This document shows positions 9,579 to 19,314 of a DNA stretch of 47,011 nucleotides, one piece after another; within the stretch, counting starts at the first letter, position 1; each line of letters starts with the position of its first letter. Source of the stretch: a virus. The notes beneath the pieces were generated by a model, which was not told the DNA's origin, made no database searches, and saw only the letters and a list, made by a program, of their open reading frames with translations. The stretch is taken from positions 1-47,011 of the IMG/VR virus record IMGVR_UViG_3300045996_001357; one strand, written 5' to 3'. The translations under genes and the position numbers were made by a program.

Positions 9579-9612
9579 AGGGCCTGTGGGGTAGAAAATT
9601 TGGGAGGGCAGC

Positions 9613-9699
9613 ATGAAAAATGATTTCGCCCCCAGCCACGATCCCCACTCCCCCGCCCCCCGTCTTACGGTGAAACGCGGCATTCACGACACAGTCTGA
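9613..9699 (+). CDS. Possible 28-aa peptide
   Basis: ATG 9613 is preceded by GGGAGG at good spacing (six bases). The 28-residue product is His/Pro-rich (MKNDFAPSHDPHSPAP). The ribosome site is the only support; there is no coupling to neighbours and a TGA ends it at 9699. Confidence 0.35.
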   Translation: MKNDFAPSHDPHSPAPRLTVKRGIHDTV

Positions 9700-10650
9700 C
9701 TGTGAAGCGGGCACATTTGGCTCTGCGCCTAGCTTTGCGTGTCCAATAAACGGACGTTTCATGTACGGTGGAGGGTACTTCTTCACCATCGCCCATATAC
9801 ACGCACGTGCGGGGGCGAGGCGCCGTGAGTGTGAAGCGTTCAGTGTCAGTGCTCTCTCTCTCTCACCTATTCACCTGAGCTTCACTGTGCTTCCCCATCT
9901 TCGCTGACTCACATCTCACTGTGATGGGTTCTCTCCCAGAGGCTTACTACCGAGTTACTGGTTTGAGGTTAGCGAAGTGTGCGGTACGTACAAGGTGGCA
10001 CAGTGACTGTCCATCCTGGCATCTTGACTAGATTGGTGGAGAAACCTGGTCGCAGTGCTGGCAGCCGGTCCTGAACCGTCCCCGAACCGTCGAACGGCCT
10101 CGCGCGTGCGGCAATGGAGGCGTTTAGGGGTGCCAGCCAATTCCTACCTCGCGGTTCGTGGTCTGTTGCAGGGATATTTGACATCTGGCTTCCCGGCCGG
10201 GAAGGTTCGACCCGCCACCGATCCGTGATCGCCATAGGCAGCGAGCCGCCGACTAGGGTCGAGTCTCCACCGACAAGGTGTGAAGCCTCCCCATCGGGAC
10301 CGGCCATTGACAGCGTTACTGCGCAAGCGGTTCGCCATGAGACCAGCCACCCGGGCGGTCGCCACTACCCACCTAGCGAAGCGGAATGGTGGGCACACCG
10401 AGCTTGACGGGATACAAGCACTCAGCACGTAGCAAGGGTTACGAGTGAAGCGAAGCAAGTAGGCCACCAGTGTGTGACCGACTAAGGCTCAGCGCGAGCA
10501 TTGGTCGCACTCAGAGAGCACAGCCCAAAGCGGAGCTAGGCCGGACTGTTCACAGGGTTTCCCCCAACCAATCTTCACACTGTGTCAGTCGAGCGCTCGA
10601 TTCGCCGGTTCGATTCCGGGTGCTGAGAGTGCGGCGATCCTGCCGCAGTG
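9700..10650. other. Non-coding region of about 950 bp, candidate origin or control region
   Basis: No frame here has a plausible start, ribosome site or codon pattern. It holds a CT dinucleotide run (about 9851-9864), a regulon promoter (9966-9993), and five dispersed copies of GTGAAGC or its reverse (about 9702, 9831, 9879, 10279, 10445), plus related CACTGTG words (9883, 9917). Near the right end are a T-arm-like GGTTCGATTCC (10607-10617) and a small perfect hairpin (TGCGGC/GCCGCA, 10629-10646). The composition is less GC-rich than the neighbouring genes. A replication origin, an attachment site or a structured RNA are the options; none is shown. Confidence 0.5.
9966..9993 (-). promoter_or_regulatory. 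Regulon promoter 2 with imperfect 15-bp element
   Basis: The plus strand at 9976-9990 reads AGTGTGCGGTACGTA, two end mismatches from the consensus. On the minus strand a good -35 TTGTAC and -10 TAACCT flank it with a 16-bp spacer. Its transcript would run left through about 400 bp of non-coding DNA and antisense to the 7.5-9.6 kb genes, so an antisense or regulatory RNA is possible. Confidence 0.6.
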
Positions 10651-10674
10651 AACGGGGGTTCACCAATGCGCTGA
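10651..10674 (+). other. Two-codon minigene behind a start-associated box
   Basis: The sequence AACGGGGGTTCACCA is followed at 10666 by ATG CGC TGA, and the TGA begins the first stem-loop module of the array. The start signal is thus attached to a Met-Arg-stop frame. Either a cassette gene was deleted precisely between its start and stop, or this is a true minigene. Confidence 0.5.
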
Positions 10675-10675
10675 G

Positions 10676-10748
10676 CCGTCCGGGACATTCACCCTACGGT
10701 GAGTGTGCCGAACGGTAGGCATCCTGCTTACTGTTTCACCACGGGGGT
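10676..10748 (+). promoter_or_regulatory. Array module 1: stem-loop plus CCACGGGGGT box
   Basis: Stem-loop 10676-10715 (CCGT..GGGACATTCACC, loop CTAC, complementary arm), then the box CCACGGGGGT at 10739-10748, six bases before ATG 10755. GGGGG can pair with anti-Shine-Dalgarno CCUCC using one G-U pair. Confidence 0.75.
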
Positions 10749-10754
10749 TTCACG

Positions 10755-11075
10755 ATGGATACTGACGCACAGCGCCGTTACCTACTCAGGGACGGCAACC
10801 TGGGCGTGCCCTGTAGCCGTTACGGATTCGACACAGAGTCCTGTGTCCCGGTCGCGTTGTCACTCGCCGCACTCGTTACCGACGCTAACGGAGAGCCCGA
10901 TGACTGGTGCGAGCTACTCGATCACATGATGTCCCTGGTGGTAAACGATCACGACGATCCCGCCACCCTGATCCCCCACTGTGACGGGCTGGGGACGGGC
11001 ATCGGAGTCGACGGTTACTACCAATGCACGGGCTGCGCGGCCTGTGAGGATTGGGGAGAGGATTGGGGAGACTGA
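10755..11075 (+). CDS. Acidic cassette protein, 106 aa
   Basis: First full gene of the array. It is very acidic (many Asp/Glu), with six cysteines, four of them near the C-terminus or middle (CDG, CTGCAAC) that could bind metal. Small acidic early phage proteins often mimic DNA or inhibit host factors, but no family is recognised. The start is fixed by the CCACGGGGGT box, not by a classical AGGAGG. Confidence 0.65.
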   Translation: MDTDAQRRYLLRDGNLGVPCSRYGFDTESCVPVALSLAALVTDANGEPDDWCELLDHMMSLVVNDHDDPATLIPHCDGLGTGIGVDGYYQCTGCAACEDWGEDWGD

Positions 11076-11076
11076 G

Positions 11077-11149
11077 CCGTCCGGGTGTTCACTCGCAAGG
11101 GTGAGCAGCCGAACGGTAGGCATCCTGCCTACTGTGTCACCACGGGGGT
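11077..11149 (+). promoter_or_regulatory. Array module 2: stem-loop plus CCACGGGGGT box
   Basis: Stem-loop 11077-11116 with a GCAA (GNRA-type) loop and the same outer CCGTCCGG/CCGAACGG arms as modules 1 and 3 but different inner stem bases that still pair. Box at 11140-11149, six bases before ATG 11156. Confidence 0.75.
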
Positions 11150-11155
11150 TACACA

Positions 11156-11521
11156 ATGTCACTCAAGTCTCTCACGGCTGAGGTTGACTACTGCGGAACG
11201 TCACAGGGGACGCTGACTGTGGCATTCGACCGGTACGATATGGACCGCGTGCAGTACAACTACACCGTGAAGGATCACAGCGGAAACGTGCTCGCCGAGG
11301 GCGACGATCTAAGGGTGCCGGGAGACATCGCCCATATCAAGGCACTCTCAACACTGTGCACCTTCCTGGGCGCTGCCTCTGAGGCCGTGTCCTGGAACCG
11401 TCACAGTGAGCACAAGTCCGACAATTCCGACCTGTTCCCTGCCGCGTGCATGGAATGGGCCGATGCGGTCGGTTCGGACGTGTTCGCCATGATGGCTGAG
11501 GAGCTTGACGCCGAGCGCTGA
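11156..11521 (+). CDS. Cassette protein, 121 aa
   Basis: An acidic alpha/beta protein starting MSLKSLTAEVDYCGTSQGTLTV; the N-terminal half looks beta-rich and the C-terminal half helical. No catalytic motif is visible. It lies between the acidic cassette protein and ardC, each separated by a stem-loop and box. An anti-defence role is conceivable from the neighbourhood only. Confidence 0.65.
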   Translation: MSLKSLTAEVDYCGTSQGTLTVAFDRYDMDRVQYNYTVKDHSGNVLAEGDDLRVPGDIAHIKALSTLCTFLGAASEAVSWNRHSEHKSDNSDLFPAACMEWADAVGSDVFAMMAEELDAER

Positions 11522-11522
11522 G

Positions 11523-11597
11523 CCGTCCGGGACGGTACCTGTAACGGGTGCCGTGCCGAACGGTAAGCAATCCCGCTTCACCGTATTCCACGGGGGT
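11523..11597 (+). promoter_or_regulatory. Array module 3: stem-loop plus CCACGGGGG box
   Basis: Stem-loop 11523-11563 with inner stem ACGGTACC/GGGTGCCGT, differing from modules 1 and 2 by compensating changes. Box at 11588-11597 before ATG 11604. Confidence 0.75.
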
Positions 11598-11603
11598 GGA
11601 AAG

Positions 11604-12512
11604 ATGTCGAAGGTCGACATTTACCAGGAAGTCACCGACAGCATCATCGCTGAGCTAGAGGCCGGAACGGTGCCGTGGCGCAAGCCGTGGACCTTCACCG
11701 GAGAGGCCAACGCTCACCGTAACTACGGCACGCGGCGCCCCTATCGTGGGGTGAACGTCTGGCTGTTGGAGATGGTCGCGCAGCGGTGCCAGTACGAGTT
11801 CCCGTACTGGCTCACCTACAAGCAAGCCGACAAGATGGGCGGCAACGTCCGCAAGGGCGAGAAGTCGACCCTGGTCGTGTTCTGGAAGATGAACCGCTAC
11901 AGGGACAAGAACGACCCTGACAAGACCGTCACCATCCCGATGCTCCGCTACTTCCGGGTGTTCAACATCGCTCAGTGCGAGGGGCTTCCCGAACCTGAGC
12001 CGATCACGGAGCCTGAGGACCACGATCCCATCGCGGCGGCGCAAGCCATCATCGACGGGATGCCAAACGCTCCGACGATCACACACGACGGCCGCGACAG
12101 TGCACACTACGTGCCCGCTTGGGACTCAGTGCACCTGCCGAAGATGGCGACGTTCGCCACGGCCGAGCACTACTATCACACGGCGTTCCACGAACTCGGT
12201 CACTCGACCGGCCATGAGTCTCGGCTGAACCGTCCCATCGAAAACGGGTTCGGAACTCCCGAGTACGCCAAAGAGGAGCTGATCGCCGAGATGACGGCCG
12301 CGATGCTCTGCGGTCAGGCGGGTATCTTCCCGCCGCTGGTGAAGCACTCTGCCGCCTACATCGCCAATTGGCTCCAGGCGCTCAAGGATGACCGCAAGCT
12401 GGTCGTCACTGCCGCCGGGAAGGCGCAGAAGGCCGCTGACTACATCATCGGGGACGCGGCCGAGGATCACGCCGAGGAGACAGAGTCCGAGCAGGTTGCG
12501 GTCGCCGCCTGA
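11604..12512 (+). CDS. ardC: ArdC-family antirestriction protein
   Basis: A 302-residue protein with the two ArdC domains. The N-terminal ssDNA-binding domain (about 1-125) begins DIYQEVTDSIIAELEAG and contains VPWRKPW, followed by NYGTRRPYRGVN and WLTYKQADKMGGNVRKGEK. The C-terminal zincin-like domain has HELGH (196-200) and the downstream helix EELIAE (225-230) likely to supply the third metal ligand. ArdC proteins protect incoming DNA from restriction in plasmid transfer; phage copies are inferred to act similarly early in infection. The start at 11604 is fixed by the array box, trimming 33 codons of open frame upstream. Confidence 0.88.
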   Translation: MSKVDIYQEVTDSIIAELEAGTVPWRKPWTFTGEANAHRNYGTRRPYRGVNVWLLEMVAQRCQYEFPYWLTYKQADKMGGNVRKGEKSTLVVFWKMNRYRDKNDPDKTVTIPMLRYFRVFNIAQCEGLPEPEPITEPEDHDPIAAAQAIIDGMPNAPTITHDGRDSAHYVPAWDSVHLPKMATFATAEHYYHTAFHELGHSTGHESRLNRPIENGFGTPEYAKEELIAEMTAAMLCGQAGIFPPLVKHSAAYIANWLQALKDDRKLVVTAAGKAQKAADYIIGDAAEDHAEETESEQVAVAA

Positions 12513-12515
12513 CGA

Positions 12516-12578
12516 GTCACCGGAGAGGATCGGGGTCCGCCCCGGTCCTGTCCAGTGACAGTCAACTACCACGGGGGT
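12516..12578 (+). promoter_or_regulatory. Array module 4: long stem-loop plus CCACGGGGGT box
   Basis: Stem-loop 12516-12559 (outer GTCAC/GTGAC, inner AGGATCGGGG/CCCCGGTCCT, loop TCCG). Box at 12569-12578 before ATG 12586. Confidence 0.75.
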
Positions 12579-12585
12579 TTCACTA

Positions 12586-12750
12586 ATGAGTACCGACCGA
12601 CCAATCGGCCCTCTCGCAATCCGGCCTCGCCCGGCCCCTTCTAGGCCTGGCTACGAATGGGTCGCCGCATGGGCCGCGTACGACGCCGCAGGACGCATCG
12701 TGATCGCCCGACGCACCCGCGACGACGTGATCTCCGCGCTCGCGGCCTGA
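12586..12750 (+). CDS. Small cassette protein, 54 aa
   Basis: ATG 12586 follows the array box. The product starts MSTDRPIGPLAIRPRPAPS and ends GRIVIARRTRDDVISALAA, a Pro-rich leader followed by a short strand-helix. The flanking modules define both ends exactly, so it is a real cassette despite its size. Function unknown. Confidence 0.6.
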   Translation: MSTDRPIGPLAIRPRPAPSRPGYEWVAAWAAYDAAGRIVIARRTRDDVISALAA

Positions 12751-12760
12751 GCGAGTCAGC

Positions 12761-12815
12761 CACGGGTTCAGTCGAAAGGCTGAGCCTGTGAGTGACAGTC
12801 AACTACCACGGGGGT
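12761..12815 (+). promoter_or_regulatory. Array module 5: stem-loop with GAAA loop plus box
   Basis: Thirteen-pair stem 12761-12790 (CACGGGTTCAGTC / GGCTGAGCCTGTG with G-U pairs) closed by a GAAA tetraloop. Box CCACGGGGGT at 12806-12815 before ATG 12824. Confidence 0.78.
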
Positions 12816-12823
12816 TAGTCACT

Positions 12824-13030
12824 ATGGAACGGTACAGTCTCAGCGAGATCGAGCGTATCCCGACGATCCATCAGGGGCAGTACGACAACCTGAAGGTGGA
12901 CACCGGCCGCGTCCGTGTCTGGCTCTCGCGCCTCACCGTCGAGGATGGGCAGCCGTACAACAACCAGGTCACGGTCGAACGCCTGACGGACGGCCGTTGG
13001 GAAACGGTCGAGGAGTACGAGGCACGCTGA
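12824..13030 (+). CDS. Small cassette protein, 68 aa
   Basis: The start at ATG 12824 is set by the box; an upstream GTG in the same frame would read through the box and is rejected. The sequence MERYSLSEIERIPTI then a beta-rich part with QVTVERLTDGRWETVEEYEA. No known family recognised. Confidence 0.6.
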   Translation: MERYSLSEIERIPTIHQGQYDNLKVDTGRVRVWLSRLTVEDGQPYNNQVTVERLTDGRWETVEEYEAR

Positions 13031-13037
13031 CCTAGCC

Positions 13038-13092
13038 GGGAGGGTTCAGGTAACACTGAGCCCTGCCGAGTAGGAGGCTTCACCACGGGGGT
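13038..13092 (+). promoter_or_regulatory. Array module 6: stem-loop plus box leading to a degenerate cassette
   Basis: Stem 13038-13067 (GGGAGGGTTCAG / CTGAGCCCTGCC) and box CCACGGGGGT at 13083-13092. At the usual distance there is ATT, not ATG. Confidence 0.7.
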
Positions 13093-13099
13093 GATTACG

Positions 13100-13189
13100 A
13101 TTGGGGCACCGATGCACGGCCAACGATTCACGTTGAGCGGGCACCCGATTCATGCGGCCCTGGCAGATACATCTGGCCGTGACAGATAG
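13100..13189 (+). pseudogene. Degenerate or ATT-initiated cassette ORF, up to 29 aa
   Basis: The position of a normal start carries ATT (13100), in frame with ATG 13112 and TAG 13187. The product from the ATG would be 25 residues (MHGQRFTLSGHPIHAALAD...). There is no stem-loop after it, only a normal box for the next gene. It is probably a decayed or truncated cassette; rare ATT initiation is an alternative. Confidence 0.4.
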
Positions 13190-13232
13190 CCGGGGTCGCC
13201 CAATCTTCCTACTCTAGGCACACAACCAACAA

Positions 13233-13242
13233 TCACGGGGGT
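13233..13242 (+). promoter_or_regulatory. Start-associated box without a preceding stem-loop
   Basis: TCACGGGGGT at 13233-13242, eight bases before ATG 13251. No stem-loop is seen between the degenerate cassette and this box, making this the shortest module. Confidence 0.65.
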
Positions 13243-13250
13243 ATCACAAA

Positions 13251-13670
13251 ATGCCGATCATCGACAAGTGCCCGCAATGCGGGTCCGAGATCGAGGCCGG
13301 TCTCACCATCTGGCTCAACGACGTGTCAATCGACACGGACGACAGGGGCCACTGGAAGGGCTGTGAGGGCACCGTCAAGGACTTCACACCCTCAGGCTCG
13401 GCCGATGACGGAGGGACCGGCATCGTTCTGAGCGAGGGCACCGGCTGCTACGTGCAGTGCGTCGAGCACGGGCACTCGTTCTCCGTCAACCTGCCGAGCG
13501 AGTTCCTGAAGCGCTGGAGCTACGGCGCCACACCCGAGCCACCCGAGCCCCCCGCCGAACTGGCGGACGCCTGGGAGCGGTATCAGCGCGGCGACGAACT
13601 GACGGGACACGAACTGTCCAAGCTGGACGAGTGGCGCGCAGACGCCGCCTGGGAACAGACCTGGGGCTAG
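13251..13670 (+). CDS. Cassette protein with N-terminal zinc knuckle, 139 aa
   Basis: It starts MPIIDKCPQCGSEIEAG; the CPQC may pair with later cysteines (KGCEGT, GTGCYVQCVEHGHSF) to bind zinc. A Pro-rich linker (about 95-105) precedes an acidic helical C-terminus rich in Asp, Glu and Trp. Function unknown. It ends with TAG just before stem-loop module 7. Confidence 0.65.
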   Translation: MPIIDKCPQCGSEIEAGLTIWLNDVSIDTDDRGHWKGCEGTVKDFTPSGSADDGGTGIVLSEGTGCYVQCVEHGHSFSVNLPSEFLKRWSYGATPEPPEPPAELADAWERYQRGDELTGHELSKLDEWRADAAWEQTWG

Positions 13671-13680
13671 CCCACCCGGC

Positions 13681-13748
13681 CACGGCTTCACTCGAAAGGG
13701 TGAGGCTGTGAGCGGGAGGCAATAACGCCAACCGCGTACCACGGGGGT
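13681..13748 (+). promoter_or_regulatory. Array module 7: stem-loop with GAAA loop plus box
   Basis: Stem 13681-13710 (CACGGCTTCACTC / GGGTGAGGCTGTG) with a GAAA loop; compared with module 5, inner pairs change on both arms. The linker GAGCGGGAGGCAAT recurs in module 10 and, with one change, module 12. Box at 13739-13748. Confidence 0.78.
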
Positions 13749-13753
13749 TCAAG

Positions 13754-14092
13754 ATGTCTGAGGCAATCACTCAGGCTGAGCAGACGATGGGCTTCGAGGC
13801 CGACGTGACCGTCAACCTCAAGGCCGAGTACCGCCACTCCACGAGTCAAGACGGCACGCACTGGCACCGTCACGTGGCGCTCGAATGGGAGGGTGGAGTC
13901 CTGTGGCTCGACATGAGCGACCTGGGCGACCACTTCTGCATCGACGTGCGGCAGTTCCGGGGTAGGCGGATCGTCCCCACGGGCGTGTTCGGTATCCAGG
14001 ACGGCTTGCGCGTCGGGCTCGATGAGCAAGCGACCGCTGAGGCGCACGGGTGGCCTGCGCTTCACTCGCCAATCCTGCTTACCGACAAGTAG
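13754..14092 (+). CDS. Cassette protein, 112 aa
   Basis: An alpha/beta protein starting MSEAITQAEQTMGFEADVTV with a His-rich segment (HWHRHVALEWEGG) and a beta-rich centre. No known motif. Ends at TAG 14092 before module 8. Confidence 0.65.
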   Translation: MSEAITQAEQTMGFEADVTVNLKAEYRHSTSQDGTHWHRHVALEWEGGVLWLDMSDLGDHFCIDVRQFRGRRIVPTGVFGIQDGLRVGLDEQATAEAHGWPALHSPILLTDK

Positions 14093-14101
14093 CCGAGCCG
14101 G

Positions 14102-14171
14102 CCGGGAGCTTCACCTAAGCGGGTGGGGCTGCCGAGCGGCAGGAATACACCTGACGCTATCTCACGGGGGT
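14102..14171 (+). promoter_or_regulatory. Array module 8: stem-loop plus TCACGGGGGT box
   Basis: Stem about 14102-14132 (AGCTTCACC / GGTGGGGCT core, loop TAAGC) and box at 14162-14171, seven bases before ATG 14179. Confidence 0.7.
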
Positions 14172-14178
14172 GAGAAAC

Positions 14179-14268
14179 ATGAAGTCACAGCGTAAGCTGG
14201 TGATCGCCAGCCTGCTGAGGGTGGACGATCCGCGTCCGCCGAAGCCGCCGAGGGAGTGGTCCCGGTGA
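14179..14268 (+). CDS. Tiny basic cassette peptide, 29 aa
   Basis: MKSQRKLVIASLLRVDDP followed by a Pro/Lys/Arg tail. ATG is set by the array box and the stop overlaps the next GTG (GTGA), so it opens a four-gene coupled sub-operon within the array. Function unknown. Confidence 0.55.
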   Translation: MKSQRKLVIASLLRVDDPRPPKPPREWSR

Positions 14269-14426
14269 CGGTTCAGGCGCTGATCGAGCTGCTGACGAAC
14301 GAGGCCGACCCGGACTCGCACGTGGTCGTCGGCTCCTGGTGGATCACCGGGGCCAACCACGTCGGCGACAAGATCACGGTCCTGTCCACGTCGAGCACGC
14401 CCCCGGCCGAGTACCGGCCGGACTAG
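14265..14426 (+). CDS. Small protein, 53 aa
   Basis: GTG 14265 overlaps the upstream stop as GTGA. The sequence VQALIELLTNEADPDSHVVV then a beta-rich GSWWITGANHVGDKITVLST. Stop TAG shares a base with the next GTG. No family recognised, but coupling on both sides supports it. Confidence 0.6.
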   Translation: MTVQALIELLTNEADPDSHVVVGSWWITGANHVGDKITVLSTSSTPPAEYRPD

Positions 14427-14572
14427 TGCCCTACTACTGCCGAGGCTGCGCCAAGTTCGTCGGGGGTCCCCTGACGGACTGCCGTAGCTGCGGCCACACC
14501 CACGACCGCGACCATCGGGCAGCGGAGGAGCCGCCCCGCCTGAGGCGTCGCAAGACGAGGAGTCTCTGGTGA
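14426..14572 (+). CDS. Small zinc-ribbon protein, 48 aa
   Basis: GTG 14426 shares its first base with the TAG of the previous gene. Cysteine pairs CRGC (about 5-8) and CRSC (about 19-22), then HTHDRDH and an Arg-rich tail; a compact zinc ribbon with basic C-terminus, suggesting nucleic-acid contact. The stop overlaps the next GTG. Confidence 0.6.
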   Translation: MPYYCRGCAKFVGGPLTDCRSCGHTHDRDHRAAEEPPRLRRRKTRSLW

Positions 14573-14733
14573 CGGATCCGAGGATCAGCGAGCGCCTGGA
14601 GTACCTCCGGCGCGAGCTGCGCGCTGAGCGAATCAGCTACGGCGAACTGGCGGAGTTGCAGAACCTCGCCGAGCACATCGAGCCTGGTGACGTTGAGTTG
14701 CTTGAGGCCGCAGGCGTCCCCGAGCACGAATAG
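14569..14733 (+). CDS. Small helical acidic protein, 54 aa
   Basis: GTG 14569 overlaps as GTGA. MTDPRISERLEYLRRELRAE and then YGELAELQNLAEHIEPGDVELLEAAGVPEHE. The pattern is common in actinophage small proteins of unknown role. TAG at 14731 begins stem-loop module 9. Confidence 0.6.
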   Translation: MTDPRISERLEYLRRELRAERISYGELAELQNLAEHIEPGDVELLEAAGVPEHE

Positions 14734-14743
14734 CCGACCCGGC

Positions 14744-14777
14744 CACGGGTTCGATTCCTTCCGGGGTCGAGCCTGTG
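14744..14777 (+). promoter_or_regulatory. Array module 9: stem-loop without the CCACGGGGGT box
   Basis: Stem CACGGGTTCGATTCC / GGGGTCGAGCCTGTG around a short loop. The usual box is replaced downstream by a conventional GAGAGGAG ribosome site before TTG 14811. Confidence 0.7.
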
Positions 14778-14810
14778 AGCGGGAGGTACCCGCTGGAGAG
14801 GAGAACAGCA

Positions 14811-15032
14811 TTGGAGGATGTAAGAGCGGCGCTCGAACGCGCCGGGGGGCTGACCGACTCTGACGGCATGGCGGCGCGCTGGAAGGTGTCCCGTCGCCGC
14901 GTCAATCAGATCGCCCAGCTCCCGGGTTTCCCTGAACCGTTGCCGGTCGAAGGGGACCCGCAGACCCGAGTGTGGTTTACCGACGAGGTAGACACATGGC
15001 GCGCAGAAATGGTTTCTCGCCGTAGGGCGTGA
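14811..15032 (+). CDS. MerR/AlpA-like helix-turn-helix protein, 73 aa
   Basis: TTG 14811 has GAGAGGAG seven bases upstream; an earlier GTG in the stem-loop is rejected. The central SDGMAARWKVSRRRVNQIAQ is a MerR/AlpA-type HTH, followed by the typical PGFPEPLPV and the wing VWFTDEVDTWRAEM. Proteins of this size and fold include excisionases and recombination directionality factors, so it may control integrase direction or regulate transcription. It is the only array gene with a normal Shine-Dalgarno. Confidence 0.75.
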   Translation: MEDVRAALERAGGLTDSDGMAARWKVSRRRVNQIAQLPGFPEPLPVEGDPQTRVWFTDEVDTWRAEMVSRRRA

Positions 15033-15087
15033 TACGTTTCTTGCCGCTAAGTACACCCCTCGCTGTCCGGTGGGGGGTAAAAGCAAC

Positions 15088-15097
15088 CCACGGGGGT
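15088..15097 (+). promoter_or_regulatory. Array box before the coiled-coil gene
   Basis: CCACGGGGGT at 15088-15097, seven bases before ATG 15105. A short hairpin (ACCCC / GGGGT, about 15054-15078) precedes it but lacks the conserved arms of the other modules. Confidence 0.65.
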
Positions 15098-15104
15098 ACC
15101 TGTA

Positions 15105-15377
15105 ATGCCACGCGCACCGCGCACCACCACTAAGCAGCCCACCGGCAACGGGGCCAAGGAGGCCGCCGCCCGGAAGGTCGCGGACCACGCCACCGAGCAC
15201 GGCGGGCAGACCGAGGAGGAGCCCAAGATGGACTTCCTGGACCAGAAGCTCGCGGAGATCCGGGAGCGGCTGGCCGAGCTGGAGCCCCTGGTCACCGAGT
15301 ACACCCGCCTGGAGGCCGCCGAGAAGATCATGGCCGAGGGCGTACCCAACCGGGGCGGCCGTCCGCGCCGTTCCTAG
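15105..15377 (+). CDS. Basic-tailed coiled-coil protein, 90 aa
   Basis: An N-terminal basic, Thr/Pro-rich segment (MPRAPRTTTKQPTGNG) precedes a long amphipathic coiled coil (MDFLDQKLAEIRERLAELE, about 43-75) and a Gly/Arg-rich end (NRGGRPRRS). This composition suggests a DNA-binding oligomer. No family recognised. Confidence 0.62.
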   Translation: MPRAPRTTTKQPTGNGAKEAAARKVADHATEHGGQTEEEPKMDFLDQKLAEIRERLAELEPLVTEYTRLEAAEKIMAEGVPNRGGRPRRS

Positions 15378-15387
15378 CCGAGCCGGC

Positions 15388-15455
15388 CACGGCATCATCC
15401 TCACGGGTGGTGCTGTGAGCGGCAGGCAATCACGCCTCCGCTGAACCACGGGGGT
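15388..15455 (+). promoter_or_regulatory. Array module 12: stem-loop plus CCACGGGGGT box
   Basis: Stem 15388-15417 (CACGGCATCATCC / GGGTGGTGCTGTG, loop TCAC), linker GAGCGGCAGGCAATCACGCC, box at 15446-15455, ATG 15460. Confidence 0.76.
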
Positions 15456-15459
15456 TCCG

Positions 15460-15660
15460 ATGGAAACAGTGACGGTCGGGGCGGTGTATTCCGCGCTCGG
15501 CCAGCAGTCGAAGCCATACACGTACGGGGTCCGCTGGGCGGATCGTACGGACGTGTACCGCTTCGCCGACCCGAACGAGGCAGCGCGCGACCGGGCCGTG
15601 ACCGTCGAGTACCTGAAGTCTCAGGGCCACCAGGTCATCGAGCGGGTCAACGTCTCGTGA
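15460..15660 (+). CDS. Small cassette protein, 66 aa
   Basis: METVTVGAVYSALGQQSKPY and then YGVRWADRTDVYRFADPNEAARDRAVTVEYLKSQGH; a strand-strand-helix pattern resembling small proteins often encoded next to phage or Streptomyces resolvases. The stop overlaps the recombinase GTG (GTGA), so the two are co-translated and may act together. Confidence 0.62.
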   Translation: METVTVGAVYSALGQQSKPYTYGVRWADRTDVYRFADPNEAARDRAVTVEYLKSQGHQVIERVNVS

Positions 15661-16298
15661 GGCTGATCGAATACCACCGCGTCTCCACTGAGGAGCAGGC
15701 GGATAGCGGGTTGGGGCTCGCCGCGCAGCGGCGGGCTACCAGCTCGCAGATCATGGCCCACGAGTTCCGGGGCTGGAGTTCGGCCGGCGTCATCTCCGAC
15801 GAGGGGATTTCGACCCGGATTCCGATGGAAAAGCGCCCCGGTTTGGCTCAAGCCCTGGCTTCAGCCCGGGCTGGGGAAGTCGATGGGCTGATCGCCATGA
15901 AACTGGACCGGTTTACCCGGTCTGTCGCGGAGTTCGAGCGGTTGATGGTCATGGCCGCAGAGGGTTTCGCGCTGATCGCGATGGACGTGGGGCTTGACAC
16001 AACGACGGCCAACGGCAAACTCGTCGCTCGCCTCCTGGCGGTCATTGCCGAATGGGAACGAGATACGATCAGCGAAAGGACCAAGGTGGCGCTGGCCGAA
16101 AAGGCAGCGCAGGGCATCAAGCTCGGGCGCCCCCGCCTGGTCCCTGACTCGGTCGTAGAGCGATGCCGCGAGCTGAAAACGGGAGAACACCTGAGCACGC
16201 GGGCCATCGCCCGGCAGTTGAACGCGGAAGGGATCAAGCCCCCCCAGGGCGAGACCTGGTCGCATTCGACCGTCGCCTCTCTCCTCTCTCGTCGGTAG
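15657..16298 (+). CDS. Small serine recombinase (resolvase/invertase family)
   Basis: A 213-residue protein with the serine-recombinase catalytic domain: nucleophile Ser10 in YHRVSTEEQ, SGLGLAAQ motif, and KLDRFTRS (82-89) with active-site arginines. The C-terminal HTH (STRAIARQLNAEGIKPP...WSHSTVASLL) is Hin-like. Length is normal for resolvases. It is distinct from the 492-residue integrase at 19759. The GTG start is coupled to the 66-aa gene. It could resolve multimers, invert DNA or mediate exchange of cassettes in the array; no inverted target repeats were found. Confidence 0.85.
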   Translation: MRLIEYHRVSTEEQADSGLGLAAQRRATSSQIMAHEFRGWSSAGVISDEGISTRIPMEKRPGLAQALASARAGEVDGLIAMKLDRFTRSVAEFERLMVMAAEGFALIAMDVGLDTTTANGKLVARLLAVIAEWERDTISERTKVALAEKAAQGIKLGRPRLVPDSVVERCRELKTGEHLSTRAIARQLNAEGIKPPQGETWSHSTVASLLSRR

Positions 16299-16426
16299 TG
16301 GTGGTGCGGCAGGGGCGCCCGTCCGCCCTCTGCCGCATCTTCCGCCACTCCTGGCGCCGTTCAATCTTTCACCCGAACTCACGTCTGCGTTGCCGTCGCT
16401 GCGGCGCAGAGGCACTGGAGGCATGA
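16298..16426 (+). CDS. Tiny basic zinc-knuckle protein, 42 aa
   Basis: GTG 16298 shares a base with the recombinase TAG, and the TGA overlaps the next gene as ATGA. Very basic (SALCRIFRHSWRRS), ending LRCRRCGAEALEA with a CxxC. Coupling on both sides is the main support. Confidence 0.45.
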   Translation: MVVRQGRPSALCRIFRHSWRRSIFHPNSRLRCRRCGAEALEA

Positions 16427-16824
16427 TGGCCGTTCTCATGGAGCACAAGACGTTCGAGCACAAGCTGACACCCACAGCCCGCCTGGCGCCCACGGCCTTC
16501 ATGGTCCCGGCCAAGCTGCTCCCCCCGACCCCGGAACAGGTCCGCGAGCGCGCCCTGGAGGAGGTCAACGCCCTGCGCACGGAGTGGGGCCTGCCCGCGA
16601 TCGCCGCGCTTCCCCCAGGCCGCCAGGGTGACCCCAAGGACTGCTGCCTCCGTCGCGCGTTCGGCTCGGCGGTCGAGACGGTGGGCAAGCACCATATCCA
16701 GTTCACGCTCGGCCCCTCGATCGCGATGAGCGCCAACCTGCAGTGGTTCGTGCGCAACTTCGACCGGGGGCGCTACCCCGACCTGATCGACCCTTCGCCG
16801 GCCGGCGAGGAGATCAAGCTCTAG
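16423..16824 (+). CDS. Hypothetical protein, 133 aa
   Basis: ATG 16423 overlaps the previous stop as ATGA and is preceded by GGAGG; the next in-frame ATG at 16426 has better spacing. The protein starts MMAVLMEHKTFEH, has a Pro-rich stretch (about 25-40), then a helical part with DPKDCCLRRAF, and ends PDLIDPSPAGEEIKL. Several actinophages encode similar small proteins of unknown role. It converges with the next minus-strand gene, overlapping 4 nt. Confidence 0.62.
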   Translation: MMAVLMEHKTFEHKLTPTARLAPTAFMVPAKLLPPTPEQVRERALEEVNALRTEWGLPAIAALPPGRQGDPKDCCLRRAFGSAVETVGKHHIQFTLGPSIAMSANLQWFVRNFDRGRYPDLIDPSPAGEEIKL

Positions 16825-17180
16825 CTATCAGGCCAGAACACGTGCAGCTCACCGATGCAGTAGCGAGGGAAGTGATCCTCCACCATCCACGCCACGCCCA
16901 TCGCGTACCGCTGGGCCTCGTCAAGGCCCTCCGGGGGGATGTCCTCAGGCAGCTCGATGTACACCGGCAAGGAGGTCTCAGGCCGCCGGCCGTTCTCCTC
17001 GCACCACTGCTCAAACTCGATGAACCGCTGCTGTCGGATGAGGCGGTAGTCAGCTTCATCGCGCGGCACGGTGGGGTCCTCCTTGGACCTACGGCAACGA
17101 TCACTACACACCGGGCAGTCCTGAAACTTCATATTGTGCGGGTAGCGGTCAGCGCAGGTGTCGCACTCGAACGATGGCAT
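16821..17180 (-). CDS. Zinc-ribbon protein, 119 aa
   Basis: N-terminal cysteines CDTC (about 6-9) and CPVCSDRC (about 22-29) make a zinc ribbon, followed by an Arg-rich segment and an acidic alpha/beta C-terminus (SLPVYIELPEDIPPEGLDEAQ). ATG 17180 overlaps a short upstream frame as TAATG. It is expressed leftward from the regulon promoter at 17307-17334. Function unknown. Confidence 0.65.
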   Translation of the reverse strand: MPSFECDTCADRYPHNMKFQDCPVCSDRCRRSKEDPTVPRDEADYRLIRQQRFIEFEQWCEENGRRPETSLPVYIELPEDIPPEGLDEAQRYAMGVAWMVEDHFPRYCIGELHVFWPDS

Positions 17181-17299
17181 TAGACTTGTGCCGCGCGGGC
17201 GCCAGAGAGTGGTAGCGGACCCTGAGGCAGCCTGAGACTTACACCCGGAGCCCCGCCAGGGAGCGAGGGTCGAGGCAGGGGGTGAGTCACGCGCGGCAC
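17180..17299 (-). CDS. Possible leader peptide, 39 aa
   Basis: GTG 17299 lies exactly 17 nt after the 15-bp regulatory element, the same distance as the start codons of integrase and the 28418 gene. Its TAA overlaps the zinc-ribbon ATG (TAATG), which would couple translation. The product is Pro/Leu/Gly-rich (MPRVTHPLPRPSLPGG...) without a recognisable fold, so it may be a leader rather than a functional protein. Confidence 0.4.
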   Translation of the reverse strand: MPRVTHPLPRPSLPGGAPGVSLRLPQGPLPLSGARAAQV

Positions 17300-17306
17300 G
17301 GGGTGA

Positions 17307-17334
17307 TTGGTACAGGTGTGTGCGGTACGTTCAA
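17307..17334 (-). promoter_or_regulatory. Regulon promoter 3
   Basis: Perfect TGTGTGCGGTACGTT at 17317-17331 on the plus strand. Minus strand: -35 TTGAAC, 16-bp spacer, -10 TACCAA(T), predicted start at the GTG of the leader peptide. Confidence 0.7.
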
Positions 17335-17402
17335 CCGAGCTGGTCGGAGCACCCCCGGTAAGGGCAGAGGGGTAAGGGGGGTGCATGGCCTCTGCTACCA
17401 GC

Positions 17403-17849
17403 TCAGTAGCCAGTCTCCGGGTCTCGCTCATGCTTCAGGCGCACACGACGCAGCCACACTTCCTCACAGCCCTCTATGACGCACGCCTCCAGAGCCGTCA
17501 GACCCTCGTACTGCTCGATCACGCGACGCTCACGAGCCTCCACACCCTCGTGCGGGTCACGGTAGTCGGGCCGGCGCCGGGCCTGTGCAAGGTCGAGTTC
17601 CGCCAGGTAGAGAAAGTAGGTGAGCTTGGGGAGGTCGCCTCGCACCTTCTGGAAGCGGTCGTTCCAATACTCGGCGAGGGAAAGGTCCCTGAGGTCTCGA
17701 CGGTTCAGGCGCACTTTCGGGGGCGGCGCAGACTTTGACCCTCCCCCCTTGACGCGGTCGCCGTCATAGCGGATCGCGTCAGACTCTGAGAGGGTGGACA
17801 TCTCCCTAAGTACGAACCGGATCCGGTCCACCAGCTCAGTCGGTTGCAA
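17403..17849 (-). CDS. Hypothetical protein, 148 aa
   Basis: TTG 17849 has GGAGG six to seven bases upstream and overlaps the zinc-finger gene by 14 nt. The frame is open further but without a ribosome site. Mostly helical and charged: MQPTELVDRIRFVLREMS..., then a basic KVRLNRRDLRDLSLAEYW and ...KLTYFLYLAELDLAQARRR. No family recognised. Last gene of the unit headed by ssb. Confidence 0.6.
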   Translation of the reverse strand: MQPTELVDRIRFVLREMSTLSESDAIRYDGDRVKGGGSKSAPPPKVRLNRRDLRDLSLAEYWNDRFQKVRGDLPKLTYFLYLAELDLAQARRRPDYRDPHEGVEARERRVIEQYEGLTALEACVIEGCEEVWLRRVRLKHERDPETGY

Positions 17850-18000
17850 TGCCCACCCTCCGAGCGCACTCGTCGCAGGCCGTGACGGTGATCGCATAGC
17901 GCTTCTCTTTCGTGCCACGCTTCTCGACGGGGTACACCTGGGCGGGGGTCTTCCCGCACCAGGTGCACGTCTCCGTCGTCGTGTACTTGCCGTCAGTCAC
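17836..18000 (-). CDS. Small zinc-finger protein, 54 aa
   Basis: GTG 18000 overlaps the upstream membrane peptide by 8 nt. Two cysteine pairs, CTWC (12-15) and CDEC (42-45), separated by a Lys-rich loop with EKRGTKEKRYAITVTAC. This layout is common among small actinophage zinc proteins. It sits in the ssb unit. Confidence 0.62.
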   Translation of the reverse strand: MTDGKYTTTETCTWCGKTPAQVYPVEKRGTKEKRYAITVTACDECARRVGIATD

Positions 18001-18091
18001 GCTCGTTGAGGACTCGGTAACCGAGCCAGCAGCCCGCCGCGAAGTTCAGGCACTGGCCGAGCACGAACCCCGCGACGAACGCTCGCTTCAC
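17993..18091 (-). CDS. Tiny hydrophobic peptide, 32 aa
   Basis: GTG 18091 shares a base with the ssb stop (TAGTG). MKRAFVAGFVLGQCLNFAAG has one short hydrophobic helix followed by CWLGYRVLNERD. It fits tightly between ssb and the zinc-finger gene. Confidence 0.5.
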   Translation of the reverse strand: MKRAFVAGFVLGQCLNFAAGCWLGYRVLNERD

Positions 18092-18435
18092 TAGAAGAGG
18101 ATCTCGTCGTCGGGGGCGTTGCTCTGACCCTGGTTCTTCGGCGGGAGCTTCACGTCCCGGGCGACGATCTCGAACGCCGAACGCTGCTTGCCCTCCTTGT
18201 CGGTGTACTCCCGCGTCTGAAGCTCGCCCGTGAAGACGATCAGGTCGCCCTTGGAGTAGATGTCGGTGACCAGCTCGGCGAGCTTGTCCCAGGCAACCAC
18301 GTCGATGAAGTTCGACCGGTCGCCGAAACGCTTGTTGCCGATGCGCAGGCTGACGACGGGCTTACCGCTGGCGGTGGAGCGAAGCTCCGGGTCCCGGGTG
18401 AGGTTTCCCGAGAGCGTGACTGTATTGAGGTCCAT
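18091..18435 (-). CDS. ssb: Single-stranded DNA-binding protein
   Basis: A 114-residue OB-fold protein: MDLNTVTLSGNLTRDPELR, then PVVSLRIGNKRF, NFIDVVAWDKLAELV, and GDLIVFTGELQTREYTDKEGKQRSAFEI, all hallmark SSB segments. It ends with the acidic tip DDEILF used to recruit partner proteins, and is shorter than bacterial SSB because the linker is short. It protects ssDNA in replication and recombination. No Shine-Dalgarno precedes ATG; the -10 of promoter 4 ends six bases before it, consistent with a leaderless message. Confidence 0.93.
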   Translation of the reverse strand: MDLNTVTLSGNLTRDPELRSTASGKPVVSLRIGNKRFGDRSNFIDVVAWDKLAELVTDIYSKGDLIVFTGELQTREYTDKEGKQRSAFEIVARDVKLPPKNQGQSNAPDDEILF

Positions 18436-18441
18436 GCGCGC

Positions 18442-18469
18442 ATGGAACAGGTGTGTGCGGTACGTTATT
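18442..18469 (-). promoter_or_regulatory. Regulon promoter 4, between ssb and a divergent gene
   Basis: Perfect element at 18452-18466. Minus strand: AATAAC, 16-bp spacer, -10 TTCCAT ending six bases before the ssb ATG. On the plus strand TACGTT at the end of the element lies eight bases before ATG 18475, so it may serve both directions. Confidence 0.65.
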
Positions 18470-18474
18470 GCCCG

Positions 18475-18693
18475 ATGGCCCGCCTGCCCGACTACTGCGC
18501 CACCTGCGAACGCGAGACCACGGTCAGCGGCGCGGAGTACGCCTACGGCGACCCCAACCGATACGACGGGATCTCCGAGTGGGTCTGCCTGGTCTGTGGG
18601 CGCCGTGAGGGGCGCTGGACGGGCAAGGAGCTGAAGGATGGGGAGGCGGAGCCTCGCTTCGGCGGGCCGCCCTCAGGGGCCACGTACGAGTAG
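18475..18693 (+). CDS. Small zinc-ribbon protein, 72 aa
   Basis: ATG 18475 rather than 18442, because the longer form would run through the regulatory element. Cysteine pairs CATC (8-11) and CLVC (about 38-41) form a zinc ribbon; the tail is Gly/Pro-rich. Divergent from ssb and at the edge of the lysogeny module. Function unknown. Confidence 0.62.
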   Translation: MARLPDYCATCERETTVSGAEYAYGDPNRYDGISEWVCLVCGRREGRWTGKELKDGEAEPRFGGPPSGATYE

Positions 18694-18729
18694 GGCTTGA
18701 CGCGGGTGTAGGGTAGGTTCGTCACCAAC

Positions 18730-18739
18730 CCACGGGGGT
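18730..18739 (+). promoter_or_regulatory. Isolated start-associated box in the lysogeny module
   Basis: CCACGGGGGT at 18730-18739, six bases before ATG 18746, identical to the array boxes 3 kb away but without the conserved stem-loop. A TTGACG (18697-18702) and TAGGTT (18714-18719) lie upstream with a too-short spacing for a standard promoter. Confidence 0.7.
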
Positions 18740-18745
18740 TTCCTC

Positions 18746-19162
18746 ATGCGCAGGGTCGTACTCCTGGCCGTCACCGGCCTGCTCGCCCTACCCGTCGCCG
18801 CAGACGCCGCGCCGTGCTACTGCGGATCGTTCGCCCGCTGGTTCTCTTCCGACACCCGGATCGGACACGCCATGCGCGTCACCTGGGAGCAAGAGACCTT
18901 CGCCGCCGCGCCCATCGTCGGCCAAGCCCGCATCGACCGCACCCGGCGCCGCGTCACCCGCTACCAGAATTGGGACAGCGAGGAGGAGAAGAAGTGGTGC
19001 CGGCGCAACCCGAAGGTCTGTCGAGCGGCGAAGGCGTGCGTGATCGCAGCGTCCGGGACCCTGGCCGTGGCAGCCGTCGATGGGAAGTGGACCCGGACGG
19101 AGTTCAAGCAGGCGACGGCGGCGTGCGCTGCGGCGGCCTTGACCTCGCTAGTCTTCCCATGA
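18746..19162 (+). CDS. Exported protein next to the repressor, 138 aa
   Basis: A clear signal peptide: MRRVVLLAVTGLLALPVAADA with likely cleavage near residues 21-22, then a cysteine pair (APCYCGS). The mature part is basic and charged (IDRTRRRVTRYQNWDSEEEKK), with two more cysteines, and ends in an Ala-rich hydrophobic segment that could be a membrane anchor. Its position next to the repressor, its own start box and export suggest lysogenic expression, for example superinfection exclusion or host-surface change; this is inferred. Confidence 0.7.
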   Translation: MRRVVLLAVTGLLALPVAADAAPCYCGSFARWFSSDTRIGHAMRVTWEQETFAAAPIVGQARIDRTRRRVTRYQNWDSEEEKKWCRRNPKVCRAAKACVIAASGTLAVAAVDGKWTRTEFKQATAACAAAALTSLVFP

Positions 19163-19314
19163 TGCGCCAGTTCGTCGCTCTCCTCCTGGTCGCGGTCGTG
19201 CTGGCCGTGATGTTCGATGCGCTTGGCCTGGTCGGCCTGCTCGCGGGTGCGCTCACCGGGGTGCTCGTCGCCCTGGCGTTGGTCGCGCTGGAGCGGCGGC
19301 GTAACTCGGCCTAA
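19159..19314 (+). CDS. Small two-helix membrane protein, 51 aa
   Basis: ATG 19159 overlaps the exported-protein stop as ATGA. Two hydrophobic helices (about 4-22 and 24-43) with a short turn, ending ERRRNSA. Co-expressed with the exported protein and convergent with the repressor. Could anchor or assist the exported partner; no family recognised. Confidence 0.62.
   Translation: MMRQFVALLLVAVVLAVMFDALGLVGLLAGALTGVLVALALVALERRRNSA

Follow-up and report, generated by a model that had tools for sequence, protein, structure and literature searches.

What separates one small gene from the next in an early phage operon, and whether the separating element is read as DNA or as RNA, is the question raised by an array of genes in the IMG/VR record IMGVR_UViG_3300045996_001357. 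The whole record, of 47,011 bases and a GC content of 66%, is referred to here as the window. The array occupies 10.65-15.46 kb of it, and from gene content and direction we infer that this region is a single early operon. In ten of its intercistronic gaps a hairpin, here called P1, lies on the + strand just past the stop codon, and eleven of its gene starts are preceded by a repeated box. The RNA structure of P1 is under selection. In our estimate there is about an even chance, judging from the sequence, that the cistrons of the operon are separated by repeated structured RNA punctuation which would act post-transcriptionally.

A covarying hairpin behind the stop codons

P1 is built of an outer helix of 4 base pairs (bp), an N/N' position, a C·A mismatch, 3 bp, a G·G or G·U position, an inner helix of 9-11 bp and a loop of 4-6 nucleotides (nt). 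The arms align free of gaps when the loops are excluded and the top two pairs of M10 are dropped (modules M0 to M13 are listed below). All 160 cells of this alignment hold a standard pair and each of the 16 pairs has changed on both sides, figures which have to be read in the light that the copies are paralogues from one genome, some of them close (M1/M2/M3; M5/M8/M10/M12), and that aligning arms by structure favours the percentage paired. Cells changed on both sides number 51, against 16 in shuffles, and the covariation score is 1.05, against 0.33 in shuffled data (0/500) and 0.07-0.17 for slid structures. Several positions show three or four pair types, so the pairing of P1 goes beyond what any consensus sequence yields. 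A reading of this DNA made from the sequence only had proposed that the stems keep pairing while both arms change, and had named covariation as the matter on which this should stand or fall; the M5 and M8 arms that it quoted are correct, and covariation is present by our own score, which is not that of R-scape.

Folding of the modules agrees with this. Ten of 13 fold far better than their dinucleotide shuffles (z -3.1 to -5.0; 0/300 shuffles as good), and M7, M11 and M13 show no fold beyond the shuffles. A covariance model made from M1, M2, M5, M8 and M12 recovered the held-out copies M9 (E-value 6.4e-9), M10 (1.4e-8), M3 (4.5e-7) and M6 (5.6e-3), with M4 marginal at 0.78. A search of Rfam with the window gave no match at the gathering score and only chance matches at E-values up to 10.

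The modules and the starts around them are as follows.

M0, 10648..10674, +: diverged box GAACGGGGGT, with two mismatches relative to CCACGGGGGT; GGGGGT at 10654-10659 in a perfect GTGAAC-GGGG-GTTCAC hairpin
M0 minigene, 10666-10674, +: two codons, ATG CGC TGA
M1 P1, 10675..10716, +: P2 overlaps the last P1 bases, about 10711-10735
M1 box CCACGGGGGT and spacer, 10739..10754, +: start ATG 10755
M2 P1, 11076..11117, +: then P2; box 11140-11149; gene 11156
M3 P1, 11522..11564, +: then P2; box 11588-11597 in a TTCCAC-GGGG-GTGGAA hairpin; ArdC gene 11604-12512
M4 P1, 12516..12559, +: most diverged copy, without P2; box 12569-12578; gene 12586
M5 P1, 12755..12796, +: GAAA loop, without P2; box 12806-12815; gene 12824
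M6 P1, 13031..13074, +: without P2; box 13083-13092; small open reading frame from TTG 13101 or ATG 13112
M7, 13233..13242, +: degenerate module, TCACGGGGGT box alone without hairpin; gene 13251
M8 P1, 13675..13716, +: GAAA loop, then P2; box 13739-13748; gene 13754
M9 P1, 14097..14140, +: then P2; TCACGGGGGT box 14162-14171 in a TCTCAC-GGGG-GTGAGA hairpin; gene 14179
M10 P1, 14738..14783, +: 11-bp inner helix, then P2; no box, ordinary Shine-Dalgarno (SD) sequence GGAGAGGAG; gene 14811
M11, 15088..15097, +: box without P1; gene 15105
M12 P1, 15382..15423, +: then P2; box 15446-15455; gene 15460
M13, 18730..18739, +: stand-alone box without a stable hairpin; gene 18746
Starts without a module: overlapping genes 14265-14733, and gene 15657

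It follows from the last line, and from the ordinary SD of gene 14811, that to place a module between nearly every gene, as had been proposed, is slightly generous, the ten gaps with P1 notwithstanding. The proposed frequency of GNRA loops is likewise reduced, these being present (GAAA, GAAA and GCAA) in 3/10 copies. The two-codon minigene of M0 is there as described, and its box is the diverged one. The GGGG of the minigene SD lies in the loop closed by a perfectly paired 6-bp stem, and M0 is perhaps a remnant left after loss of the coding part of a cassette.

Three observations bear on the nature of P1. Of its 162 cells, 21 depart from Watson-Crick pairing, each of them being a G·U and none an A·C, and the reverse strand folds worse than the sense strand in 10/10 modules bearing P1. 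Together with the covariation, this identifies P1 as an RNA element on the + strand and not a DNA site. The C·A mismatch in its stem is invariant in 10/10 copies, which suggests a feature of recognition or flexibility rather than decay.

The alternative that each gene is preceded by a DNA operator or promoter takes its appeal from the inverted repeats which stand beside start boxes in phage early genes, as in the Extended Start-Associated Sequences (ESAS) of cluster K mycobacteriophages (PMC3203893). A sequence that is free while its pairing is kept, with G·U and no A·C, is the opposite of what a DNA site would show, and a search of 9600-19200 for promoters, covering the sigma-70 type only, gave no match beyond chance. 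We regard this alternative as the least credible of those considered. The ESAS themselves are 17-bp inverted repeats whose arms follow a sequence consensus and generally lend no support to RNA pairing (PMC3203893), and they contain SigA-like promoters (PMC11373665); P1 differs on both counts, having full compensatory pairing and, as far as sigma-70-type promoters are concerned, no match.

P1 is also unlike an intrinsic terminator, in which a GC-rich hairpin stands directly before a U-run. Terminators or attenuators between the genes might be expected from a GC-rich hairpin past each stop codon, but no U-run follows P1, and 9600-19200 has 3 terminator-like sites where shuffles have 3.8, the sole one on the + strand within the array being P2 of M1. 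Termination at these hairpins is thus very improbable.

The start box

The box CCACGGGGGT has 12 exact copies in the 47 kb of the window, 10 forward and 2 reverse, where 0.26 are expected in shuffles. Nine exact copies (M1-M6, M8, M11 and M12) and two TCAC variants TCACGGGGGT (M7 and M9) make up the eleven array starts that had been credited with the box; the tenth forward exact copy precedes gene 18746, as had also been noticed. The reverse copies (24156 and 26181) are out of reach of any start. The gene behind the M6 box at 13083 is doubtful, because its start is either a TTG, which gives 11 codons, or an ATG lying 19 nt past the box.

As had been proposed, the box can pair with the anti-SD: its GGGGGU forms a duplex, including one G·U, with the ACCUCC of 16S rRNA, and 4-8 nt separate GGGGGT from the start codon. 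Duplex energies of the upstream regions with a box are -9.8 to -16.8 kcal/mol, within the range of the better SDs of this phage, and outside the array only gene 18746 among 53 candidate starts examined has GGGGGT. The CCAC of the box is constant although it lies outside the pairing with the 16S tail; the flanks of the box vary. The box is therefore an SD sequence (GGGGGU) plus an unexplained CCAC. It is this conservation beyond anti-SD pairing that remains of the earlier suggestion of a factor besides the ribosome; the factor is not established, and an additional factor and a regulation of cassettes are plausible. A general SD-sequestering hairpin formed by the box flanks was considered and rejected, because exchange of the right flank between modules gave p 0.08-0.22 and the hairpin is strong in M0, M2, M3 and M9 only.

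In layout the box resembles the Start-Associated Sequences (SAS) of cluster K phages TM4, Anaya, Pixie and Adephagia, in which a repeated SD-bearing box lies a few nt upstream of many early starts (PMC3203893, PMC12699233). Both are conserved beyond 16S pairing, and at some cluster K starts an inverted repeat lies upstream. The window has what defines an SAS, that is, a repeated SD box 3-9 nt from starts with conservation beyond 16S pairing (12 copies, 4-8 nt, CCAC), but the cluster K consensus GGGATAGGAGCCC (PMC12699233) is unrelated to CCACGGGGGT. The likeness to SAS and ESAS that had been drawn thus applies to the layout of the box, which is SAS-like; P1, perfectly paired and without a promoter match, is not an ESAS, whose arms do not pair and bear promoters.

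A second hairpin sharing a strand with P1

In seven modules (M1, M2, M3, M8, M9, M10 and M12) a second hairpin, P2, takes the 3' strand of the P1 outer helix as its own 5' strand, and because this strand is common to both, P2 and the outer helix are mutually exclusive. P2 folds better with its native partner than with a swapped one (p 0.001 for the seven modules, 0.0001 for all ten), and the shared strand ends in U, C or G, with partners that match in both helices (M1-3, M9, M10). The linker from P1 to the box is 21-23 nt in the six boxed modules with P2 and 8-9 nt in the three without it.

This arrangement invites the idea of a translation-coupled switch, in which the ribosome ending one gene would open the outer helix, P2 would form and the SD of the next gene, otherwise sequestered, would be freed. 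The shared strand and the covariation of both helices speak for it. So does the effect of masking the outer strand as a ribosome would: the predicted accessibility of the SD increases strongly in M1 (0.16 to 0.60), M8 (0.05 to 0.57) and M12 (0.04 to 0.50), and moderately in M3 (0.39 to 0.67). M2 and M9, however, are unchanged, M4, M5 and M6, which have no P2, fall slightly, self-pairing of the box is no general feature, and the balance between outer helix and P2 in the free ensemble varies widely across modules. A ribosome-driven switch is therefore possible for some modules and not general, and as the explanation of the array we consider it rather unlikely.

Two adjacent hairpins in an early operon also bring to mind polymerase-binding antitermination RNA, of which the put sites of phage HK022 are the example. 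These occur once, near the early promoter, and not after every gene, and there is no Rfam match; a put-like role for P1 and P2 is highly doubtful.

A small hairpin before an SD recurs in the CaiB-type repeats of Gordonia cluster DR phages (PMC9302106, ON108644), where GCGGG/CCCGC and an SD precede several genes in a manner like P2 of M10. In our own reading of ON108644 (Gordonia phage CaiB) the repeats consist of a repeated promoter- or operator-like stretch, a small hairpin and an SD, with no convincing P1. Upstream of genes 42, 71, 77, 80, 81 and 85 of that phage, several repeats fold into the GCGGG/CCCGC type before the SD.

Possible punctuation in related phages

The major capsid protein of the window has 28% identity to that of Microbacterium phage Shocker, with Arthrobacter phage Jasmine a weaker relative, and because of this relationship the window probably represents an actinobacterial phage. 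A nucleotide search of GenBank phages found no relatives of the window; in a distant-mode search the matches were weak and, among the matches listed, all within ArdC-type genes. Comparison was extended to 15 records with a related capsid protein (G001-G015).

One of these records is G003. Its capsid and ArdC proteins are 49% and 50% identical to those of the window, and around ArdC it has an array of its own, in which each stop codon is followed by a structured element and, past a linker, by a long SD (AGAAAGCAGGTGAGTAG in the case of E1 and E3). The element has a 7-bp acceptor-like stem (ATCGGCG/CGCCGAY) and a T-arm with a TTCRA loop, with a variable middle arm in 3/4 copies. The copies lie between early genes.

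L071 962-1056: tRNA-like element
L071 1930-2040: tRNA-like element
L071 2223-2328: tRNA-like element
L072 16612-16719: tRNA-like element

Among Rfam families they come closest to the tRNA-like mascRNA (RF01684), below threshold (E-value 0.9-1.8). With RNA of that type they share the acceptor stem and the T-arm with its TTCRA loop, and they differ from it in being intercistronic, in a bacterial virus and below the Rfam threshold. ARAGORN, a tRNA finder, found nothing in G001-G003, the element included. It is possible that these elements are punctuation for RNase P/Z. That tRNA-like elements occupy the same slots in G003 suggests that the slot is conserved and not the sequence.

In G008 and G011 the start boxes are plain and no hairpin is common to them, G014 has three scattered copies of CACGGGGGT, and the ArdC loci L032 and L033 have repeated start boxes accompanied by promoter-like repeats instead of P1. 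In IMG/VR the exact class-B stem had no match, and a 14-base box pattern gave, among the matches listed, single scattered matches, a tandem repeat in L115 being the one multiple. A pattern fixing only the base of class-B P1 gave 22 matches, one of which (L278 3758-3802, in G016) is a lone P1-type hairpin between two genes of a 46-kb phage; its E-value is inflated because the pattern preselected it. Its inner helix, the pairing of which lay outside the selection by the pattern, is fully complementary and unrelated in sequence to the window copies. It stands 40 nt from the upstream stop, where the window copies stand at 0-4 nt, and its P2 is not significant. The two starts past it share CACCACGARCGAAA, in which the CACCACG of three window boxes recurs, a likeness that is suggestive only.

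A possible mechanism

The distance from the stop codon to P1 is 0-4 nt in 10/10 copies, and the terminating ribosome must therefore touch P1. Repetitive extragenic palindromic (REP) hairpins lying no more than 15 nt from a stop codon have been reported to stall ribosomes in Escherichia coli (PMC12306157), and P1 lies well inside that distance. It lacks the conserved palindromic sequence of REPs, which are chromosomal, of high copy number and defined by sequence; the ten P1 copies belong to a phage, keep structure while sequence is free, and are followed by a start box.

In the reading that we find likeliest, the array is punctuated by RNA and P1 would close the cistron behind it, whether by ribosome release, by 3'-end protection or by cleavage. 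The terminating ribosome could open the outer helix and so allow P2 to form. The inner helix with its fixed mismatches might be the target of a factor specific for double strands, either an RNase III-like enzyme that cuts it or an RNA-binding protein, or might simply protect the 3' end. The uniform box would then give every cistron its own strong and independent initiation, and each gene would be a self-contained, exchangeable expression cassette within one transcript. Counted in favour of punctuation are the structured RNA of another type that G003 places between cistrons, at the corresponding positions around its homologous ArdC gene, and the lone P1-type hairpin between two genes of the L278 phage. 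The estimates given for a bound protein, for RNase III-type cleavage and for a switch driven by the ribosome overlap with that for punctuation in general.

The RNase III sites of T7 early mRNA are imperfect hairpins with internal loops between the cistrons of an early operon, and by analogy P1 might be cut to yield separate mRNAs with protected 3' ends. The hairpin arms of about 20 nt, the conserved internal mismatches and the position between early-operon genes would suit such processing, as the tRNA-like counterparts in G003 would suit RNase P/Z. P1 differs from the T7 sites in its shorter stem, its fixed C·A mismatch and the repeated start box coupled to it. Sites of the T7 type extend over about two helical turns, and the 16 bp and 2-3 mismatched positions of P1 come to less than that. 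RNase III processing is possible, and we rate it below an even chance.

Several results weigh against punctuation as set out here. The change counts in P1 are not fully independent, because all copies are paralogues of one genome, and at about 16 bp plus mismatches P1 falls short of an ideal RNase III site. Masking raised predicted SD accessibility in only 4/9 boxed modules. The box occurs without P1 in M7, M11 and M13; since M11 and M13 have the box only and M10 has P1 and P2 with an ordinary SD, hairpin and box are separable. None of G001-G015 carries an array of starts with the box, and the P1 covariance model had no match when run on 58 loci from capsid and ArdC relatives.

The modules themselves appear to recombine, in keeping with the shuffling of cassettes that had been foreseen: 26 nt of linker and box are identical in M4 and M5, beneath different P1 inner helices. 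These shared stretches could be taken to mean that the modules are recombination seeds and nothing else, promoting the shuffling of cassettes. Homology would favour identical sequence, yet P1 keeps structure and not sequence, and recombination as the sole role is very unlikely. A wider proposal joins shuffling to punctuation by RNA. The cassettes would be interchangeable, each ending in an RNA switch (P1 outer helix versus P2) that senses the terminating ribosome and passes control to the next box, and relatives would repeatedly have swapped the punctuation RNA, with mismatch hairpins here and tRNA-like elements in G003, so that such punctuation would amount to an exchangeable general layer in the gene expression of phages. 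We think this improbable.

Start-associated repeats have been known in actinophages since 2011 without an assigned function. The window offers a cleaner case, in that its upstream element is RNA-like by covariation and exists in ten natural variants with a common structure but no common sequence, with and without P2. The array thus permits a direct test of whether RNA punctuation gives each small early gene its own expression unit.

Neighbouring genes and other repeats

The genes of the array are for the most part orphans. The gene at 11604-12512 encodes an ArdC anti-restriction protein (PF08401 and PF18818), a search with gene 12824 gave homologues solely from Paenibacillus, and the last cassette is followed by a serine recombinase (phrog_95). 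A tRNA finder run on the window found nothing. Upstream of the array, 9580-10640 is a stretch of about 1 kb without convincing genes, with a T-arm-like CCGGTTCGATTCCGG at about 10607-10621; it is possible that this stretch is a leader, an origin or an attachment region.

An asymmetric 13-mer, GTGTGCGGTACGT, has seven exact copies in the window (5155+, 9977+, 17318+, 18453+, 19728-, 28437+ and 29587+), where 0.09 copies are expected even if one mismatch is allowed. Several copies lie in gene-free stretches or close to starts, and the 13-mer is probably a phage promoter element or a repressor- or stoperator-like site.

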